64,000 nt of DNA, from positions 434,001 through 498,000 of the forward strand of contig LNDW01000015.1 in NCBI GenBank assembly GCA_001464815.1, read 5' to 3'. Below are positions 8,583-33,497 of the stretch, piece after piece. The translations under genes were made by a program, and so were the position numbers. The stretch's first letter is position 1. Every line of letters starts with the position of its first letter. Origin of the DNA: Betaproteobacteria bacterium Ga0077527. GTDB lineage: Bacteria > Pseudomonadota > Gammaproteobacteria > Burkholderiales > SG8-41. The notes under the pieces are model-generated. The model had not been told where the DNA came from and ran no database searches. It saw only the letters and a list, made by a program, of their open reading frames with translations.

Positions 8583-8612
8583 ATAAGTAACTGTTTTTAT
8601 TGATTAATTTAT
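8583..8612 (+). repeat. AT-rich interspersed element, copy 2
   Basis: Contains CTGTTTTTATTGATTAATTT preceded by ATAAGTA. It lies six bases beyond the rhodanese stop and upstream of the lyase gene, in inverse orientation to both. Confidence 0.6.
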
Positions 8613-8617
8613 GTAAC

Positions 8618-10207
8618 TCAGGGAAAGCGCCGGAAACCGAAATCAGCGTCGGTGGCCACCGCATCCAGCAGTTCCACTTCCCACTTCAGGTATTCGCGCA
8701 TCGCCTCCTCGACCTTGTCCTTGCGGTCGAGCGCGCGATAACTCAGGTCATCGGCTTCTCCGGTCATGCGTGTGTCGCCGGTGTCCAGCGCGTAACCCGC
8801 GGCCACCCAGGCCGGCGTGCCACCGGCAAGCACTTGCACTGCCGCCCCGGTCAAACGTGAAGCATCCGCCGCGGCCAGCCTTGCCAGCGCTTCTTCGGCG
8901 GCACTGAACACCAGCAGCGGTGTTGCCGGAATTTTTGGAAGTTGATCCTTCAAGCGCGAGCGCACCACATGCCATGCACCGGGAATGTGGCCCTCGCGAT
9001 GCTGCAGACTGGAGTCGAGGTTGGCGACCTGCGCCTGCCCGTCATCAAGCAGCCGTTTCAGCTCTGCCGCGTTGATCGATGCGGCGTGACTGGATGCACC
9101 ATCGAGCACAGCAGGCACCGGCGTGCCGCGTTCCGTGCAATCCGCCGCGTTTGCCGCCAGCACATACACCTCCTGATGCCCCATCTGCGCCAGCCACGCT
9201 GCAGTCATCGTCGCGCGCACGCCATCGCTGTCGGCCAGCACCACCACCGACGGACGCACGGCGATGAAGGTATCGGTGGCCTGCACCATCTGTCCGCCCG
9301 GCGCATGCACCGCACCCGTCAGGTGGCCGGCCTCGTACTCCTCGGGATTGCGCACATCGAACAGATAGGTCGTGCGCGACGGGTCCGCCTGCAACGCGCG
9401 CAACCGCGCAAGGTCGATGCGGCGCACACCGAAGCGCTGCGCCACCCGCGCCGCCGCCTGCTGCGGCCAGCCCTTGCCGCCATCGGACGGCGCGGGCACG
9501 GCTTCCGTACGACCGTGATTCAACTGCAGCCCGGCGAGTTTCCAGCCCTGGGTACCGTCGCGCAGCGCATAGACCGGATTCGGAAAACCGGCGTTGATCA
9601 GCACCTGAGCGCCGATGATGCTGCGCGTGCGGCCGCCGCAGTTGACCACCACCGTGGTCTGCGGCGACTTCACGAAAGCCGGCATCCGGTACGGCAGCTC
9701 GGCGCTGGGACAATCGAAGGCACCGGGGATGCTGTTGCGTTTGAATTCCGCCAGCGGCCGGCTGTCGACCACCACCAGATCCCTCCCCGCCTTCATCCAG
9801 GCATCGAGTTCGGTTGCGGTGACTTCAGGCGGCGCATCCTCATGCTGGATGTATTCGCCGAAAGCCTTGCTCGGCACATAGACGCCGGTATAGAGCCGCC
9901 CGCCTGCGGCCTTCCACGCGGGAGTGCCGCCATCAAGCACACTGACATTGGCGTATCCGCCGGCTTGCAGTTTTTCCGCAGCACGCGCGGCGAGCCCTTC
10001 ACCGCCGTCACAAACCACAATGCGCACACTCTTGCGCGGCAGCAACGCCGCAACGCGCAGCTCCAGCACGCTCAGCGGCACATTGGACACCCGCAACAGG
10101 TGGCCGGTGTACGAATACACGCCCTCCTCGCGCACATCGAGCACCGCGAGCTCGCCGCCATCATCATAAAGCGCCCGCAGTTGCTGCGGTGTTACCGACT
10201 GCCCCAT
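8618..10207 (-). CDS. Four-domain rhodanese-like protein
   Basis: 529 residues in four rhodanese-type repeats. Repeat 1 (about 1-105) has Cys66 in VVCDGGEG and repeat 2 (about 120-235) has Cys190 in VVNCGGRTRS, so both could carry a persulfide. Repeat 3 (about 265-370) has VVLADSDGVRA and repeat 4 (about 375-490) has LLVFSAAEEA, both without the active Cys. No signal peptide is seen, so it is cytosolic. ATG 10207 follows an AGGAGA site; a TTG three bases upstream is less likely. It is the last gene of the PrpD, UGSC-fusion, rhodanese operon, which suggests sulfur or selenium handling for the selenoprotein (inference). Confidence 0.9.
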   Translation of the reverse strand: MGQSVTPQQLRALYDDGGELAVLDVREEGVYSYTGHLLRVSNVPLSVLELRVAALLPRKSVRIVVCDGGEGLAARAAEKLQAGGYANVSVLDGGTPAWKAAGGRLYTGVYVPSKAFGEYIQHEDAPPEVTATELDAWMKAGRDLVVVDSRPLAEFKRNSIPGAFDCPSAELPYRMPAFVKSPQTTVVVNCGGRTRSIIGAQVLINAGFPNPVYALRDGTQGWKLAGLQLNHGRTEAVPAPSDGGKGWPQQAAARVAQRFGVRRIDLARLRALQADPSRTTYLFDVRNPEEYEAGHLTGAVHAPGGQMVQATDTFIAVRPSVVVLADSDGVRATMTAAWLAQMGHQEVYVLAANAADCTERGTPVPAVLDGASSHAASINAAELKRLLDDGQAQVANLDSSLQHREGHIPGAWHVVRSRLKDQLPKIPATPLLVFSAAEEALARLAAADASRLTGAAVQVLAGGTPAWVAAGYALDTGDTRMTGEADDLSYRALDRKDKVEEAMREYLKWEVELLDAVATDADFGFRRFP

Positions 10208-10243
10208 CAATGGTTTCTCCTGCCTTCAGTTATTCATCAAACA

Positions 10244-11971
10244 TCAAATCCTGCATTCATCCGACCCGCAACCCAGATCGCGATCCGATTCCGCGAGCAG
10301 CCGGTCGTAGGACTCCGGCGTGCGCACCAGCCGCCCCACCACCGCCGGCGAATGCGCCTGCAGCCACTGGCTGTGTGTCGGATGGTCGCCACCGGCAACA
10401 ACAAGGATGATGTTGTCGGGCTTCATCGCGATCGGCCAAGGGTCGAGCTTGATGCTCTCTCGAGCGAGCGGGCTGGCATCGATCTCGATCCAGGCCAGGC
10501 CGCCGGCACGCTTGACCTGGTCCATCGGGATTTTCGAGTGCTGCCACAGAAACTCGCGCAGTTTCGGCGGCGTCCAGCCCAGCTTCGCCATCATGCCCGC
10601 AACCACCGGCGACACCATCATCATGCCCGGTGTGCCGTTTTCCCAGCCGGCGAGCGCGGCGAAATTCGGCGTGCGCATGAAATCGGCCATACGATGCAGG
10701 CCCTGCGTCACGTCCTCTTCCGGCGTTTCCTTTTTTGCGCCGCGGCGGCGGATATTGCTGACACCACTGGCAAAAAACACCGACACCGAGTTTGTGCCCG
10801 GCTCGAATCCGTGGCGCTGCGTCGCATGCGGCTGCCAGCCCTCGGGCAGGCTCGCCTCGTCTTCAGCGAACACCGCATTGGTGTAACGCATCGCGCCAAA
10901 GATCGCCATGGTGCCGATGCCGGGCAGCGCGCCGCCGACGTTCTGCTGCATCAGGCGCAATGCACGACCGATGCTCGCGCCCGCGGGGCGTTGCGGATCG
11001 GGACCGAGGCAGCCGAAACCGGAATTGAGGCGGATGTCCTTGCCGATCGGGCCGTTGACGATGACCACCGGAAAGGGACTGCCCGAGGTTGCCTGCAACT
11101 GGTCGAACAGTGCTTCCGGCGCGAGGCAGGCTTCGACCGCGGCAATCAGCACCGGCAGATATTCGGGCCGCCCGCCGGCCATCGCCAGCGCCACCGCGCA
11201 GGTTTCGACCGTGGTCACACCACCACGCGGCGGAAACTTGCCGAGCACCTGATCACGCGGCAGCGCCGAGCCGCGCAGGACCCACTCCACACGCTCGCGG
11301 GTCGCCGGCCATACCGGCAGGCCGTCACCCCAGAGGTTGGTCAGCAGCAGGTTGTTGGCCTTCTGCAGCGCGTCTTCGTAACTCGCGCCTTCGACCGACA
11401 GCATCTGCGCGCCGCCGGCAGACTGCACAAAATCCGGCTGCCATTGGGTCAGGCCGTTGTAGAACTCCTTTTTTCTCGTGGTGATCGCCGACAGGTCGCT
11501 GCCCGGCAAAAACATGTCGATCGGAAAAGTCACCATCGCCGCATCGGGCGCCAGGCCCAATCCGGAAACCGCGTTTTTCATGACCCCGACAAAATCCGTA
11601 CGCGTCAGCGTGACGGTGGGAATGCCCAGTGCTTCAATCCTCGCGACAGCACGGCCGCAAGCGGTGGCGCAGGAGCCTCAGGCCGCGTTGCCGACGATGA
11701 CCGCGTCAACGCCGCTTTTTTTGACCAGCGCGGCAGTCTCTTCGGTCGGAATCAGCACATTGCCCTGCGGATAGGCGTCGATCGGCAGCAGTTCTGCCGT
11801 CGGGAAATCGGCCTTCAGCAGATCGCGCAGCAAGGGCAGCATGCGGAAAGCCTGCCACTGCTCGTTGCTGACGAAACCGATCCGTTTGCCGGCCAGCATG
11901 TCGATGCGCGGCGCAAAAGGCTGACTGACTTCGAGTGTGCCGGATGGATCGTGGAATTCAAGGGTGACCAT
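10244..11971 (-). CDS. UGSC-domain selenoprotein fused to a UGSC-partner domain
   Basis: A 575-residue protein read through one in-frame TGA (11678-11680) as selenocysteine 98 in U-G-S-C. Residues 1-180 form the UGSC domain (GVDAVIVGNAA, then UGSC, then GRAVARIEALGIPTVT). Residues about 190-575 form a domain (NLWGDGLPVWPATRE, MAGGRPEYLPVLIAAVE, IVNGPIGKDIRLN, RALRLMQQNVGG) that is homologous to the separate protein at 31966-33006. The tail carries CGSDEC. ATG 11971 has a strong GGAGG. Both segments are in the same frame with no other stop, so the TGA is unlikely to be a random nonsense mutation. UGSC selenoproteins are a recognised family of unknown reaction; a UxxC redox role is inferred. 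Confidence 0.82.
11678..11680 (-). other. In-frame UGA predicted to encode selenocysteine (residue 98)
   Basis: The TGA lies exactly at the U of the UGSC motif. A weak hairpin can be drawn 14-30 bases downstream (CCG/CGG around CUUG, with an outer CAC/GUG). It is much less convincing than the one in the second UGSC gene. Confidence 0.72.
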
Positions 11972-12055: not shown

Positions 12056-13426
12056 CTAATTCAGCAGCAGGCTCAATTCGCGCACACCACCGGCATCCAG
12101 CGTCTCCAGCGACTCCAGCAGCGTGGTCACCCGCGCTGCAGTGGCGGCATCGAGCCGCACCGCCAGACAGTCAGCGACCTTGGCACGGTGTTGCGCCAGA
12201 TCGATCGGCGCGCCCCAGAAGCCAGGCGGCCGGGTGCAGGTGGCGCGGTGCACACTGCCATCGGCCAGCGTGACCTCGATGCTGATCTGCATACGGCTGA
12301 ACACCGTCGGCAACGCGGCATCGACTTCGATGCTGATCTTAGGCAGCAGCGCCTCGAGGTCGACTGCAAAACGACGCTGGTCATGAAAGGACGGAATGCC
12401 GACGCGGCCATCGAGCAGCGCACAGGCCGCGGCGTATTGGAAGCTGAACTTGCCTTCCAGCCCGGACACCGGCCGCGGGCGATCCACATCGGGCATCGCC
12501 GGCGTGATCAGCTTCACTGCGCGGATCGTTGCCGGATCGACGATGGTCCTGCGTGCCTCCAGCGCCGCCGCAATCGCAAAATGGGTCGGAAACTTCGACG
12601 GGAAAAACTTGATCGCCATGCCCGGGTCGCGGAAACGGAACGGTTTGCCGTAACCGAGCAACATGTCGCGATCAATGCCCCTGGGGAAAAACGCCGCGAC
12701 AAAACCGTCTTCATGCCCGAGGATGTCGGCATTGGCGGTCAGCCCGCGTTGCGCGAGCAGTACCGCCTCCAGCCCCGCCGCGGCTGCATTGCCGCAATGA
12801 GTACACTTCACGCCGTGGCCGATGTTGCCGCGCAGCGCGCCACTGCGTGATGCGGCAATCGCCAGCGCATGGGTCAGCTGTCCAGCATCGAGCCCCAGCA
12901 GATGCGCGGCAACCACCGCTGAACCAAAAGGTCCGACCACACCCGGCGCATGAAACTTCGACGCCTCGCGGCGATGGTCCACCGCCGCCAGCAGCCGCCC
13001 CTGGGCCTCGAAGCCCTTGGCGCAGGCGGTGAGCAGCTCGCGGCCATTGAGTCCGTCGCGCAACGCCAGCGCAAAAGCGACCGGCACCGTCGGCGAAATC
13101 GCGTGCGTTGACGGATTCGACATCGGCTCGAAATCCAGTACATGCATCGACACCGCGTTGGCATAGGTGGCAAGCAGCGGTGAAGTGCTGAAACCGAAAC
13201 CCCACACCGGGCACTGTTCGCGCCCGCCCTGCTCGCGCACATGTTCCGCGAACATTTTCGGCGCCTGCTCGGCGCTGCCCGCCACCGCCACCGCGATGCC
13301 GTCGGCGATCAGGCGTTTGGCAATGGCGATGTCCTCGGCGGCCAGCGTATCGGCCGTGGTGGCACAGATTTGCTGTGCGAATTGTGCGGTCAGGCTCGTG
13401 GCGAGATTCAGGGCGAGATGCGTCAT
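12056..13426 (-). CDS. MmgE/PrpD-family protein
   Basis: 456 residues of the 2-methylcitrate dehydratase/iminosuccinate fold family, recognised by HVLDFEPMSNPSTH, GLDAGQLTHALAIAAS and HGVKCTHCGNAAAAG (where GGxGxxxKxxxxGxxA is usual), and a C-terminal dehydratase-like lobe. It is likely a hydro-lyase or isomerase of a carboxylic acid; PrpD itself is not implied because no methylcitrate genes are present. It is the first gene of the operon with the UGSC fusion (84 bases apart) and the rhodanese protein. Confidence 0.9.
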   Translation of the reverse strand: MTHLALNLATSLTAQFAQQICATTADTLAAEDIAIAKRLIADGIAVAVAGSAEQAPKMFAEHVREQGGREQCPVWGFGFSTSPLLATYANAVSMHVLDFEPMSNPSTHAISPTVPVAFALALRDGLNGRELLTACAKGFEAQGRLLAAVDHRREASKFHAPGVVGPFGSAVVAAHLLGLDAGQLTHALAIAASRSGALRGNIGHGVKCTHCGNAAAAGLEAVLLAQRGLTANADILGHEDGFVAAFFPRGIDRDMLLGYGKPFRFRDPGMAIKFFPSKFPTHFAIAAALEARRTIVDPATIRAVKLITPAMPDVDRPRPVSGLEGKFSFQYAAACALLDGRVGIPSFHDQRRFAVDLEALLPKISIEVDAALPTVFSRMQISIEVTLADGSVHRATCTRPPGFWGAPIDLAQHRAKVADCLAVRLDAATAARVTTLLESLETLDAGGVRELSLLLN

Positions 13427-13536
13427 GGCGGCAGCTCAGACTAAGATAAGCAAACAGGCGTGATTATCACGCGAGTCCGCCTGAAGCAGGCGCGCTTTGA
13501 CAGGTATTGGACTGGGTGACGCCTCGCCGAACCCGA

Positions 13537-14937
13537 TCAATCGTTGCGCCGGGTCTCGTTCTTTGCCACACATTGCGCATGGCCCTTGAATTCCACTTTT
13601 TCACATTCGCGTTGCAGACACTGCTGAAGCGCAAAGAACATACGCCGGCCACAATTGGCTTCGGGTGAGGCCGGCGTGTTGCCTGTATTGGCTATCGCCA
13701 CCTGTTGCGGCACGCTGGTTGCAGTGGCACCCGCCTCGACCCTGATCTGGTCGATCTGCTCCAGCCCCTGATCCAGTTGTCCGAGGGTGTTGTTGGCTGA
13801 TGAGCCCACTGCTGAAAACCCATCATTCTGGATTTGCGTGACCAGCGGCCCGCCGCGATTCATGCGCTGATTGACGTCCTGCACCTGCTCAACCGTGTTG
13901 TCGATGCCCGGGGTGCGTACACCGCCGGGGTTCAACACGCTATCCAGCATGCGCCGTCGCGCTGCGTTGTTTTCATCCGCCATTTCCTGCGCCCGCTCGA
14001 TCTGCGGCGCTGCCGGCTTGCTGGTATCCGGCGGATTGAACAGCGTGGAAGCGAAGTTGCGCACCTGCGCCCAGCCATCGCGAAGTGTGTTGGTCACCGC
14101 CGTGCCACCCCCTGCGCTGCCGCTTTCCGCAGAACCAGAGTCTGCATTTCTGCTTTCGTTGTTCGAAGGTGTGACACCAGGTGTATAGGCGGGTTCGGAC
14201 GCACTTCGGCCGGCCAGTGCATTGGCACTGGCCGGTGCTGCCGCCGAGGATGCCGCCCGCGGCGCGCTGAACGCCTGCGCCAGCGCGCCGAAGACATTGG
14301 CCAGTGCCTGGGTCTGCGCCTGCTGCTGGCTGATCGCTGCGTTGCGCTGCTCCTGCGCCTGGTAGGCCTGCTGCTGCGGCGACTGAACGATGCGCGGCTG
14401 GTTGCGGTTGTCGTAGTAGCTCGGCGGGGTCGATGCAATCACCCGCGGCTGGTTGCGTTCCTGCTGCTGGCTGCTTTCCTGCAATTGCGCCGCATTCTGG
14501 CGGCGCTGGTTGTCTTCATAGGCCTGACGGTTGCGGCGTTCGTTGTCCTGTGCCATGCGACGCTGCTGATCGTTTTGCTGCTCATGGACACGTGCAACTG
14601 AACGGCAGGATTGCTCGCCGGCATCCCATTCGCGACGAATGCGGTCGCGCTCCTGATGGTGATGGCTGATGACTTTGTGATACTCGCCGACGCGATGGTA
14701 ATACTGGGCCCGGCATTGCTCGTTGCCTGCGCACTCCCGGCTTAATTGAAGACGATTGCGATCTGTGATGCCCTGGCTGGCCAGTTGCTGATGCTGTTGA
14801 TACAAAGCCCGGTACTGTTGGGCCACGGCATCACACTGCGCCATGCTGGTCGGATTCGGCGGAAAACGCGCCAGCGCCAGTCCTGGCAGCAGAACACCCA
14901 GCAAGAGCAGCAAGCTGCCGTATCCGGTCCGGTTCAT
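13537..14937 (-). CDS. Exported Gln/Asn-rich protein of unknown function
   Basis: 466 residues with a clear signal peptide (Leu-rich core, cleavage after ALALA), so secreted or periplasmic. The mature N-terminus has spaced cysteines and a charged, Gln-rich coiled-coil-like stretch; the middle is low-complexity Gln/Asn/Ala/Ser. The C-terminus has four cysteines (NCGRRMFFALQQC, then QREC, then HAQC) that could form disulfides. I do not recognise a family. ATG 14937 follows GGGAG. It lies on the same strand as dinB but is separated by an AT-rich repeat. Confidence 0.75.
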   Translation of the reverse strand: MNRTGYGSLLLLLGVLLPGLALARFPPNPTSMAQCDAVAQQYRALYQQHQQLASQGITDRNRLQLSRECAGNEQCRAQYYHRVGEYHKVISHHHQERDRIRREWDAGEQSCRSVARVHEQQNDQQRRMAQDNERRNRQAYEDNQRRQNAAQLQESSQQQERNQPRVIASTPPSYYDNRNQPRIVQSPQQQAYQAQEQRNAAISQQQAQTQALANVFGALAQAFSAPRAASSAAAPASANALAGRSASEPAYTPGVTPSNNESRNADSGSAESGSAGGGTAVTNTLRDGWAQVRNFASTLFNPPDTSKPAAPQIERAQEMADENNAARRRMLDSVLNPGGVRTPGIDNTVEQVQDVNQRMNRGGPLVTQIQNDGFSAVGSSANNTLGQLDQGLEQIDQIRVEAGATATSVPQQVAIANTGNTPASPEANCGRRMFFALQQCLQRECEKVEFKGHAQCVAKNETRRND

Positions 14938-30534: not shown

Positions 30535-31422
30535 ATGCGTGTCTGGTATACAGCAGTGCTGTGCGTCGCGTTCTTCGCGGCAGGCCCGGTGTGGTCGCAG
30601 GAACGGTTTTCGATTTTTGTCGGCAGCAATCCTGAAAGCATAGACCGCATGGTTGCCATCGCCGGCCTGCGCGACGGCGATGTGGTCACCGATCTTGGCT
30701 CCGGTGATGGCCGCATTGTCATCAGCGCGGTGAAATCGCATCCGGGTGTCAGCGGCTGGGGCGTGGACATCGACGAGAAACTGGTGCGTGAGTCGAGCGC
30801 CGAAGCCGGCAAGGAGGGCCTCTCAGGGCGCGTGCGTTTTTTCCACCAGAACGCCTTTGATGCCGATCTGAGCCAGGCCAACGTGATCTTCATGTGGCTG
30901 TGGCCCGAGCTGATGTACATGCTGCGCACCAAGATACTCGCCGAGGCACGGCCCGGCACCCGTGTTGTCACCAACATGTGGGACCTCGGCAGCTGGAAAC
31001 CCGATGCGACCGACGACCGTCCGATGCCGGTGCACATGTGGGTGGTGCCGGCCCAGGTCCGCGGCAGTTGGAACTGGGAACTCACGGTGGGCGGCGTCAA
31101 GCGCCACTACGCCGCGGTGCTTGAGCAGCAGTTCCAGCAGATCGAGGGCGTGGTGCGTGCCGGTGACCGACGCGGGGTGTTCCGCGAGATGAAGCTGCGC
31201 GGCGAAGACCTGAGTTTCGCGCTCGACATCACCCTCGACGGCAGCGGCATGTTCCGCCATACCTTCAATGTCAAAGTGCGCGGCGACCAGATGCTCGGCA
31301 CCGTACGCATCGTGCCGCTGAAGCGTGACGACGAAGCCGGCGAGGCGGTGACCCTGCCCTTCCAGGCCACGCGCAACCCGAAAAGCGCCTATTTCGCGCC
31401 GACGGGGCTGGTCAAGCGCTGA
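30535..31422 (+). CDS. Exported methyltransferase-fold protein
   Basis: 295 residues beginning with a signal peptide (VWYTAVLCVAFFAAGPVWS, cleavage before QE). The mature part has a class I motif I (VVTDLGSGDGRIVISAV), GWGVDIDEKL and NVIFMWLWPELM, that is, a SAM-binding Rossmann layout, followed by a beta-rich C-terminal domain. SAM is not expected outside the cytoplasm, so it may bind something else or stay membrane-attached facing inward. ATG 30535 follows GGAG. Its 3' end overlaps that of the convergent UGSC gene by 11 bases. Confidence 0.82.
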   Translation: MRVWYTAVLCVAFFAAGPVWSQERFSIFVGSNPESIDRMVAIAGLRDGDVVTDLGSGDGRIVISAVKSHPGVSGWGVDIDEKLVRESSAEAGKEGLSGRVRFFHQNAFDADLSQANVIFMWLWPELMYMLRTKILAEARPGTRVVTNMWDLGSWKPDATDDRPMPVHMWVVPAQVRGSWNWELTVGGVKRHYAAVLEQQFQQIEGVVRAGDRRGVFREMKLRGEDLSFALDITLDGSGMFRHTFNVKVRGDQMLGTVRIVPLKRDDEAGEAVTLPFQATRNPKSAYFAPTGLVKR

Positions 31423-31945
31423 TCCGGTCTCTCAGCAACGTCACGATCACGGCAACTGCAGCTCGCGCCTTCTCGCGCAGTGCCGCGTCATCGTTGTTGG
31501 CGACCGGATGCGCGATCACCGCGAAGGGATAGTCCTTCAGGCCGTTGGCGGCGGCCACGGCTTTCGCGGTGGCGACAAAACGGTCGGTCATGATCGCGAC
31601 CGCGGGGATGCCGAGCCGTTCGGCTTCGATGGCGTCGTGCAGACTGCACGACGAGCAGCTGCCTCAGTCGCCGGTGGCGGCGAGGATGGCATCCGCGCCG
31701 CGCAGCTCCATCAGCATCGGCCCAGGCACCGGGCGCGAGGCATCGGGCTTGCGCCGGCGGATGCATTCGCGCACGCGGTATTCCTGCCTGAGGATGTCCT
31801 CGATGAAGTCGAACAGCCGCGCGGTGCCGATCTTGGCGTTGTCGATCATGCCCACCACCGCGCCTTCGAGGCTGGCCAGCGGTGGCGCGAGGCGCAGGGC
31901 CTCGCCTTCGGCGGACTGGGTGGGGTCAAGGACTCTGAGTGTCAT
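31412..31945 (-). CDS. Small UGSC-domain selenoprotein
   Basis: 177 residues counting one in-frame TGA at 31664-31666 as selenocysteine 94 in U-G-S-C-S-S-C. After the TGA the frame continues for 83 codons with coherent sequence (LHDAIEAERLGIPAVAIMTD) matching the UGSC domain of the fusion protein, and stops at 31412. ATG 31945 follows AGGAG. It is the third gene of an operon with the CinA-like and UGSC-partner genes (20 bases from the latter). The UGSC family is known as a selenoprotein family of unresolved chemistry. Confidence 0.86.
31633..31653 (-). promoter_or_regulatory. Predicted bacterial SECIS hairpin
   Basis: Starting 13 bases after the U of the UGA, the mRNA forms a perfect 8-bp stem (CGUCGUGC with GCACGACG) around loop AGUCU. 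Counting U of UGA as 1, GUCUGCAC occupies positions 23-30. As I recall the E. coli fdhF SECIS, the same eight bases occupy the same positions, including the G23/U24 recognised by SelB. Confidence 0.75.
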
Positions 31946-31965: not shown

Positions 31966-33006
31966 TCACGCATCAATGGTCATCGTCACTGCAAGCGATT
32001 TCTTGCCGTACCAGGGCGGCAGGATCGCGGCAAAACCGCCCGCCGGCCCGCCGGCCGCGACCACCAGCAAATCGTCAGGCGAACGCAACGCGCAATACAC
32101 CTTGTCCTCGTCCTTGCGCCCCGCCACCGCGGCCTTGCCGACGCCGCGCCATTCGCCGCGCTTCACGCGCGCCTTCTCGAACACATACTCGCGGATGTCC
32201 TGCTTGCGCCAGCCTGCGGCGGCAAAGATGTCGCGCTGCTGCTTCGCGATCACCAGCGCGTAATTGCCTTCCCAGATCGAGTAGAGCAGCATGTTGCTGC
32301 GCATCGCCGCGGCGTAGGTATCGCACAGTTCACGCGGGTCGTGGGTCCACTCGTTCATGATCTGCGTCGGTGACTCCACCTGCAGCGCGGTCACCGCCGA
32401 TTGCCCGGCGGCCAGGCCACGCTCGACCGACAGCGGCAGCCACGGCGAGTCCTCCTCGTCCTCGGCGATGCAGAAGGTGAACTTGCCGGGATGGCCCAGC
32501 GTCGAGCGGTCAAGCTGGCCGGGTATGCCGCCCAGCACATTGAGCAGGATCAGGCGGATGCTGCGGCCGATGGTGGCATTGGCGCGGCTGGCGTTGGCGA
32601 GCACATTATGGGTGGCGTTCATGCCGATGGCCTGGCGCACCGGGCCGTTGACCACGATGAAGGGGGCGCTGCCGCCGGTGCTGGCGGTGCTGCCGTGCAG
32701 CGCGTATTCCGGCCGGCACATCGCCTTCACCACCGCCACCACCACCGGCAGGTATTCCGGCAGGCAGCCGGCCATAACCGCAGCAATCGCCACCTTCTCG
32801 GCGCTGATGCTGCGCCGGCGCACCGGCTCGACGCCGATGACATCACCCGGCGCAAGTTGCGCAACGGCCAGGAAGCGCGCCACCGCGTCCTCGGTCGGCG
32901 GCACGATGGGCAGGCCGTCGGTCCAGCCCCTGCGCTGATAGAGCTCGTTCGCCTCGGCCGCGTCGGCGACTTCGTGCACCGCGCTGGCGAAAACCGGGCC
33001 GCTCAT
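31966..33006 (-). CDS. UGSC-partner protein (stand-alone form)
   Basis: 346 residues homologous to the C-terminal domain of the fusion at 10244: GWTDGLPIVPPTED, MAGCLPEYLPVVVAVVKA, FIVVNGPVRQAIGMN, ANATIGRSIRLILLNVLGG. No signal peptide or membrane segment. Its function is unknown, but fusion in one locus and adjacency in the other argue that it works with the UGSC domain. Its ATG overlaps the cinA-like stop by four bases. Confidence 0.85.
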   Translation of the reverse strand: MSGPVFASAVHEVADAAEANELYQRRGWTDGLPIVPPTEDAVARFLAVAQLAPGDVIGVEPVRRRSISAEKVAIAAVMAGCLPEYLPVVVAVVKAMCRPEYALHGSTASTGGSAPFIVVNGPVRQAIGMNATHNVLANASRANATIGRSIRLILLNVLGGIPGQLDRSTLGHPGKFTFCIAEDEEDSPWLPLSVERGLAAGQSAVTALQVESPTQIMNEWTHDPRELCDTYAAAMRSNMLLYSIWEGNYALVIAKQQRDIFAAAGWRKQDIREYVFEKARVKRGEWRGVGKAAVAGRKDEDKVYCALRSPDDLLVVAAGGPAGGFAAILPPWYGKKSLAVTMTIDA

Positions 33007-33497
33007 CGCGGCGCGGCCTCCACCGCCTCGCACAGCAGGTCGATCGCCGCCGCGGCAAAGGCCTGCATGTTGGCGACGCGGTCCGTCGCGCCGGTCTCCA
33101 GCGTGCGTGAACGTTCGCCGGCGGGACCGGCCACCGCGAAACAGGCATGCCCCGCCGGATAGCCGTAGCGGCTGCCGGTGGGACCGGCGGCACCGGTCTC
33201 GCTCAGCGTCCAGTGGGTTGCCGCGCGCTCGCGCAGCCGCCGTGCCTTGCGCAGCGCGTATTCCTCGGTCGAGGGCGTGATGTCGTGCAGCTCCTTGTCG
33301 GCGAGGCCAAGGAATTCGCGGCGCATCTGGTAGGTGTAAACCACCAGACCGCCGCGCACGCAGGCCGAAGCGCCGGGGACTGCAAGCAGTGCCGCGGTGA
33401 TCAACCCCCCGCAGGAAGACTCGGCCACCGAGATGGTGTGGCCGCGGGCCTTGAGCAGTTCGATCGCGCGTTGCGCGTGGGGCAGCAGATCTTTCAT
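33003..33497 (-). CDS. CinA C-terminal-domain (PncC-like) protein
   Basis: 164 residues of the nicotinamide-nucleotide amidase fold, with VAESSCGGLITAALLAVPGAS and LSETGAAGPTG. The family Ser of AESCTGG is kept, but the conserved segment normally YSNxxK reads YTYQMRR, replacing the Lys with Arg. It may be an altered amidase or have another role. It is the first gene of the UGSC operon. Confidence 0.85.
   Translation of the reverse strand: MKDLLPHAQRAIELLKARGHTISVAESSCGGLITAALLAVPGASACVRGGLVVYTYQMRREFLGLADKELHDITPSTEEYALRKARRLRERAATHWTLSETGAAGPTGSRYGYPAGHACFAVAGPAGERSRTLETGATDRVANMQAFAAAAIDLLCEAVEAAPR

Follow-up and report, generated by a model that had tools for sequence, protein, structure and literature searches.

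The UGSC selenoproteins are an already known family, covered by the profiles PF24696 and NF041046. The available portion of the 2008 GOS paper (PMC2398784) ranks them with the most frequent selenoproteins of aquatic metagenomes, with 255 sequences in the GOS set, calls them likely thioredoxin (Trx)-fold proteins of unknown role and notes a UGSC/Unknown_1 fusion, in which Unknown_1 could be the partner protein described below. In the available part of a 2026 review (PMC13188914) UGSC is listed with the Trx-like families, and the selenoprotein literature searched gives, in the text available, no function for it. A second point of comparison is provided by protein B of the glycine and D-proline reductases. 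According to the available sections of PMC3091704, selenocysteine (Sec) lies at position 350 of 436 in GrdB of C. sticklandii and at 152 of 242 in PrdB, and the path of glycine reduction leads from NADPH by way of thioredoxin reductase and thioredoxin to GrdA and GrdB.

In our study, a 64-kb window (the whole stretch of DNA that was analysed) was examined, and all coordinates are positions in this window. The gene of interest is the UGSC selenoprotein gene on the minus strand, with the following features.

31412..31945, minus strand: UGSC selenoprotein gene with Sec at residue 94, from translation with TGA read as U and from PF24696 and NF041046
31664..31666, minus strand: UGA codon 94, read as selenocysteine (the U of UGSC), from the TGA in the sequence and in relatives
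31633..31653, minus strand: SECIS hairpin (loop AGUCU) in which G23/U24 are placed as in fdhF, from folding, comparison with fdhF and a register test

The product has 177 residues, with ATG at 31945-31943 and the terminal TGA at 31414-31412. A single in-frame TGA stands at the U of the motif U94-G-S-C and is followed by 83 codons, as the initial annotation had described, the strand being minus. The same annotation had placed the protein in a family of UGSC selenoproteins, and both profiles bear this out. PF24696 matched with 166.6 bits against a cut-off of 25, the match spanning the TGA. NF041046 gave 125.7 bits against a cut-off of 125 with a 175-residue frame, again across the TGA, and 124.8 with the domain-trimmed version, a pass that is marginal. 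The protein has in common with the described family the profile, the UGSC motif, a U position taken by Sec or by Cys and, in most Sec forms, a SECIS directly downstream.

Decoding with selenocysteine had been proposed in the initial annotation, with selA, selB, selC and selD as the genes to look for, and all four are present in the genome from which the window comes. SelA (535 bits in a PF03841 search), SelB (430 bits, cut-off 242) and, at the contig end, a tRNA-Sec of 75.9 bits with anticodon tca lie on one contig (C21), and SelD (427 bits, C7:99371-100300) has one in-frame TGA and is probably itself of the Sec type. A scan of genome contigs yielded 39 relatives of the UGSC gene, all of them close (63-95% identical). 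TGA occupies codon 94 in 39/39 and the match continues past it in every case with 66-92% identity to the window gene in the post-TGA part; homologues ending at this TGA, which the initial annotation had named as counter-evidence, number 0 of 39. In the more distant plasmid loci considered below, Cys takes the same position in 13 of 19, as read by eye. The records of the relatives are mostly titled as Burkholderiales or betaproteobacterial MAGs, with a few named strains, for example Sheuella amnicola and Pusillimonas; five of the loci (L033, L036, L040, L046 and L061) come from public MAGs titled Bordetella parapertussis, a label that looks doubtful.

The hairpin directly after the TGA was also recovered as first described. 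With numbering from the U of the UGA, positions 14-34 read CGUCGUGC-AGUCU-GCACGACG and give 8 perfect pairs around the loop AGUCU; Vienna folding of the same hairpin favours a 9-pair stem closed by a loop of three bases. Bases 23-30 are GUCUGCAC, and the identical octamer occupies the identical position in E. coli fdhF (NC_000913.3, MG1655), including G23/U24, so that the likeness pointed out in the initial annotation proved correct; unlike this octamer, the stem sequence of the window hairpin differs from that of fdhF. The folding energy is modestly low for the composition (z -1.5, with 13 of 200 shuffles folding equally well) and alone would prove little. A register test was made on 93 UGSC domains with one TGA, taken from the window and from loci of other genomes. 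With GU at 23-24 (44 distinct 40-mers) the stem is paired at 94.7-94.8%, whereas no slid register exceeds 45%, and with GU one base earlier, at 22-23 (16 distinct sequences), at 97.9% against at most 48%. When the 3' letters were redealt among the sequences, pairing averaged 88% (maximum 91.3%) in the first set and 92.6% (maximum 95.8%) in the second; the observed values are higher, and an excess of pairing therefore exists, while much of the pairing is plain sequence conservation among related genes. Eight further distinct sequences have GU at neither place, including the fused gene of the window described below, the genome's other fused gene and a gene of the genome G277 that appears to be split (fetched twice). 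A search with Rfam at gathering level gave no match in the window.

On this evidence the window UGSC gene is almost certainly decoded with selenocysteine, the case being carried by homology and conservation, namely the PF24696 match across the TGA, the TGA kept in 39/39 relatives, the identity beyond it and the register of the stem, together with the Sec machinery of the genome. SelB with Sec-tRNA would read UGA 94 through the adjacent hairpin.

Two genes lie directly upstream of the UGSC gene on the same strand.

31966..33006, minus strand: partner protein of 346 residues, without a Pfam or NCBIfam family, AF2 model of pLDDT 83
33003..33497, minus strand: CinA/PncC-like gene (PF02464, 134 bits), its stop overlapping the partner start as ATGA

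The partner stop precedes the UGSC start by 20 bases. The CinA/PncC-like gene is present in 10 of the 39 loci of the relatives, and the partner accompanies UGSC in 39/39 by tblastn; in one locus (L053) it lies some 2.5 kb off on the opposite strand, and in two (L030, with 20 partner residues left, and L047) it is cut by the contig end. The genome of the window has 7 UGSC loci, each with one TGA, and the partner is adjacent or fused in 7/7, fused in 2. A second UGSC gene in the window is of this fused kind.

10244..11971, minus strand: UGSC domain fused to partner domain, 575 residues with U98, AF2 model of pLDDT 78
11678..11680, minus strand: UGA of the fused gene, with the usual SECIS GU found at neither 22-23 nor 23-24 downstream

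In this second copy both halves of the proposed enzyme would form one polypeptide. The initial annotation had the UGSC gene itself right and left the partner gene, the fused gene and the expansion of the family unmentioned. Judged by eye from the translation, a multi-rhodanese-like frame (8609-10230, minus strand) lies directly downstream of the fused gene and a MmgE/PrpD-like frame (12056-13654) upstream of it.

The same pairing was seen on a larger scale in the related MAG G446, in which 50/50 UGSC domains are paired with the partner, 32 fused and 18 adjacent; these were taken from 40 fetched regions covering 50 of its 58 UGSC matches, each domain exceeding 60 bits and having one TGA, with a 34-bit fragment (L135) left out. 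The UGSC domain comes first in 32/32 fusions, and each fused frame has exactly one TGA, hence no hidden stop between the halves. In a survey of the phylum, UGSC was found in 5 of 398 genomes and the partner in the same 5, for which the chance, if the two were independent, is 1/C(398,5)=1.2e-11, or 1/C(397,4)=9.8e-10 without the window's own genome, which is among the five by design; since the profile for the partner derives from proteins next to UGSC, very remote partners would escape this comparison. In one of the five (G143) a Cys-type UGSC adjoins the partner. Plasmid BLAST returned the partner in 24 records and UGSC in 12, and when 19 of the 24 partner loci were fetched, a profile search placed a UGSC domain beside the partner or in frame with it in 18/19, haloarchaea included; beside the partner of a Haladaptatus plasmid (L170) this search found no UGSC domain. 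Judged by eye, the U position is a TGA in 3 of the 19 loci, whereas 13 have Cys there and 2 have Met; in the remaining one it is absent. Cys versions occur in Arthrobacter, Roseovarius, Variovorax and haloarchaea. In four haloarchaeal loci (L163, L168, L177 and L178) the Cys-type UGSC is flanked by two partner paralogues, which suggests a three-subunit form. Public plasmid records annotate UGSC genes as short or split at the Sec TGA (L161 8640-8930, L179 6420-6989), and on a Paracoccus ferrooxidans plasmid a split-annotated UGSC lies about 4 kb from selB.

It is very probable that UGSC and the partner are a functional pair, and the UGSC protein would be one half of a two-part enzyme, in complex with the upstream partner as the other half. 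This departs from the published description of UGSC as a likely Trx-fold protein of unknown role (PMC2398784, available portion). The near-universal partner, the expansion and the resemblance to protein B were not found in the available text of the UGSC literature searched, and the context of partner and expansion appears to be new.

The AF2 model of the partner has pLDDT 83 and pTM 0.87, and that of the fused protein pLDDT 78 and pTM 0.80; in the alignment behind the latter, the C-terminal tails of single UGSC rows were misplaced, which may weaken the model. Its order of elements is E30-34 H41-55 E60-64 H77-86 E90-96 Sec98 H99-114 E119-124 H125-137 E146-149, which predicts for the UGSC half a Rossmann-like alpha/beta domain in which Sec follows a strand and opens a helix. 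Neither model has a PDB fold match at E<=0.001, and sequence searches of the PDB gave nothing significant; the short local matches of the fused model, by our reading, are to Rossmann-like domains, none of them significant. A cyclic amide hydrolase or a two-subunit fumarase fold was considered for the partner and, with a best E of about 0.01 and TM of 0.2-0.35, treated as no match. Many polar residues of the partner, namely D30, T38, C81, T110, N130, N143, R148, N156, D166, E182 and E184 (numbering of the window partner), are near-invariant, as one would expect for the pocket of an enzyme. In UGSC itself, U/C94 and C97 are invariant in 134 aligned domains, a redundant set from which the plasmid Met forms were left out.

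Profile comparison has pointed to a possible relation with protein B. By profile score at E<=0.01, 15 of 60 diverse UGSC domains weakly match TIGR01917 GrdB (best 1.8e-5) and 13 match TIGR04483 PrdB (best 9.4e-5), with GrdF matched by 8, a broader selenoprotein B model by 8 and GrdH by 5; in all 14 families are listed, and besides UGSC the other 8 are single hits, including TrxA at E 0.0097. For GrdB 45/60 domains do not reach E 0.01, and a Pfam scan of the same 60 gave no GrdB match. The window UGSC protein scores 20.3 bits with TIGR01917, below the family cut-off of 602.2. The Sec of UGSC falls near position 347 of 431 in the GrdB model, as placed by offset only. UGSC resembles GrdB, GrdF, GrdH and PrdB in having a UxxC Sec motif within the matching profile region, which holds for a minority of its members, and resembles the protein B systems in the involvement of a second protein and in a thioredoxin reductase beside the pair in some loci and a thioredoxin in one. 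On the other hand, it lies far below the cut-off tested, its hosts include betaproteobacteria, actinobacteria and haloarchaea, and its partner has no Grd or Prd model match; for the pyruvoyl-type partner (GrdE/PrdA), Pfam and NCBIfam gave no match at E<=1 in 32 partner sequences. UGSC is probably related, at a distance, to that part of protein B of the glycine and D-proline reductases in which the Sec lies.

The thioredoxin link is seen in the neighbourhoods. Arthrobacter has the gene order trxB-trxA-partner-UGSC, and trxB also accompanies the pair in Variovorax SRS16 and Roseovarius. TrxB-like genes were found by tblastn (E<=1e-10) in 17 of 140 fetched loci, a raw count without a background rate from loci that include overlapping fetches; 7 are in the 39 relatives, 9 in the 19 plasmid loci and 1 in the genome G139, and CxxC is present in 17/17. 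Some are next door to the pair and some several kb away; the 40 regions of G446 and the 64-kb window contain none. Other plasmid neighbours include CoA transferases, CoA ester lyases, isocitrate-lyase-type proteins and TctC/TRAP receptors. In Sporomusa (L172 6317-8041) and Vibrio (L175 6344-8029), fused homologues have Met at the Sec/Cys position, as read by eye, and lie next to genes for aconitase X and DUF126; they match UGSC weakly, at 26 and 24 bits, and are perhaps a non-redox version.

Overall, we favour with moderate confidence the explanation that UGSC and the partner are a Sec enzyme of two parts working by thioredoxin-linked reduction. A thiol/selenol redox enzyme of organic-acid catabolism appears reasonably likely, and reductive cleavage in the manner of protein B is proposed more tentatively. 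In such an enzyme the partner would bind a small organic acid, Sec would attack and the bond would be cleaved reductively. This would leave a selenide-sulphide between U94 and C97, to be re-reduced by thioredoxin or by a dedicated CxxC thioredoxin-reductase-like flavoprotein. The paralogues may serve different substrates, perhaps delivered by TctC-type binding proteins. As a speculative generalization, the pair could belong to an as yet uncharacterised class of selenium reductases that consist of two parts and draw on thioredoxin, remote cousins of protein B with a new partner, acting on many organic acids, with a radiation to about fifty Sec-encoding copies within a single genome in one Burkholderiales family.

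A different division of labour, in which the partner is the catalyst (an organic-acid lyase, dehydratase or isomerase) and UGSC serves as a redox switch or as a structural subunit, its Sec doing no more than guarding or regulating the partner, is rather unlikely and deserves the most weight among the alternatives. The Met forms of Sporomusa and Vibrio, both beside aconitase X, imply that the partner may act there without redox chemistry; the many near-invariant polar residues of the partner, its non-significant fold matches to class I fumarases and the nearby PrpD/MmgE genes point the same way. However, U/C94 and C97 are invariant in the redundant set without Met forms described above, Sec is retained in dozens of copies per genome, and PrpD genes are very numerous in G446 regardless. 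It is less probable still, and improbable in our view, that UGSC is a plain member of its known family, a thioredoxin-like general antioxidant with the partner as an incidental neighbour. The Trx-like placing in the 2008 paper and the 2026 review (PMC2398784 and PMC13188914, each as available), the redox-typical UxxC motif and the match of 1 of 60 members to the TrxA model would fit this reading, whereas the partner accompanies UGSC almost without exception and is often fused to it, the predicted order of strands and helices in the fused model differs from the Trx order, and no thioredoxin is among the best 50 of 719 PDB matches listed for this model, so that a Trx fold of UGSC is disfavoured on the predicted fold. 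Lastly, a true stop at the TGA, with a truncated 93-residue protein and a relic frame downstream, is highly improbable: the open frame taken alone is weak evidence (220 of 2000 shuffles of the post-TGA sequence stay open) and in an Acidovorax plasmid record the annotated protein is short and stops at the TGA, but the conserved TGA and post-TGA part of the 39 relatives, Cys homologues reading through the position and complete Sec machinery in the genome all speak against it.

For the two-part Sec enzyme that we favour, the near-obligate partner, the fixed order of the fusions, the thioredoxin-linked operons and the Cys versions make the function of UGSC testable in vitro. What merits follow-up is the proposed enzyme in two parts, with its expansion and its likeness to protein B; the selenoprotein reading itself is that of a known family.

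UGSC is present in 74/74 genomes of the window's family, with 1 to at least 40 matches per genome; the genome G403 has 40 in total. G446, a MAG of 5.7 Mb (98% complete, 2% contamination), has 58. In 51 of these a single TGA is the sole stop codon, 3 have a further stop besides a TGA and 4 have no stop (partly fragments). The available part of the 2026 review (PMC13188914) puts the largest bacterial selenoproteomes at 57 and 63 genes, describes the selenoprotein-richest bacteria as mainly anaerobic and urges caution on mixed MAGs, which applies equally to the copy number of G446. The 51 one-TGA matches of G446 alone are notable against these figures, and if about fifty Sec-encoding copies in a single genome are real, these betaproteobacteria would rank with the largest bacterial selenoproteomes known. 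Among the 229 neighbour proteins of the G446 loci, 95 are TctC and 21 MmgE/PrpD_N, and the whole genome has at least 150 TctC (995 candidates) and at least 150 MmgE/PrpD (286 candidates). Neighbour enrichment as a clue to the substrate was rejected on this high baseline, and no substrate is therefore drawn from the TctC and MmgE/PrpD neighbours. G446 itself displays an extreme catabolic expansion of TctC receptors and MmgE/PrpD alongside that of UGSC.
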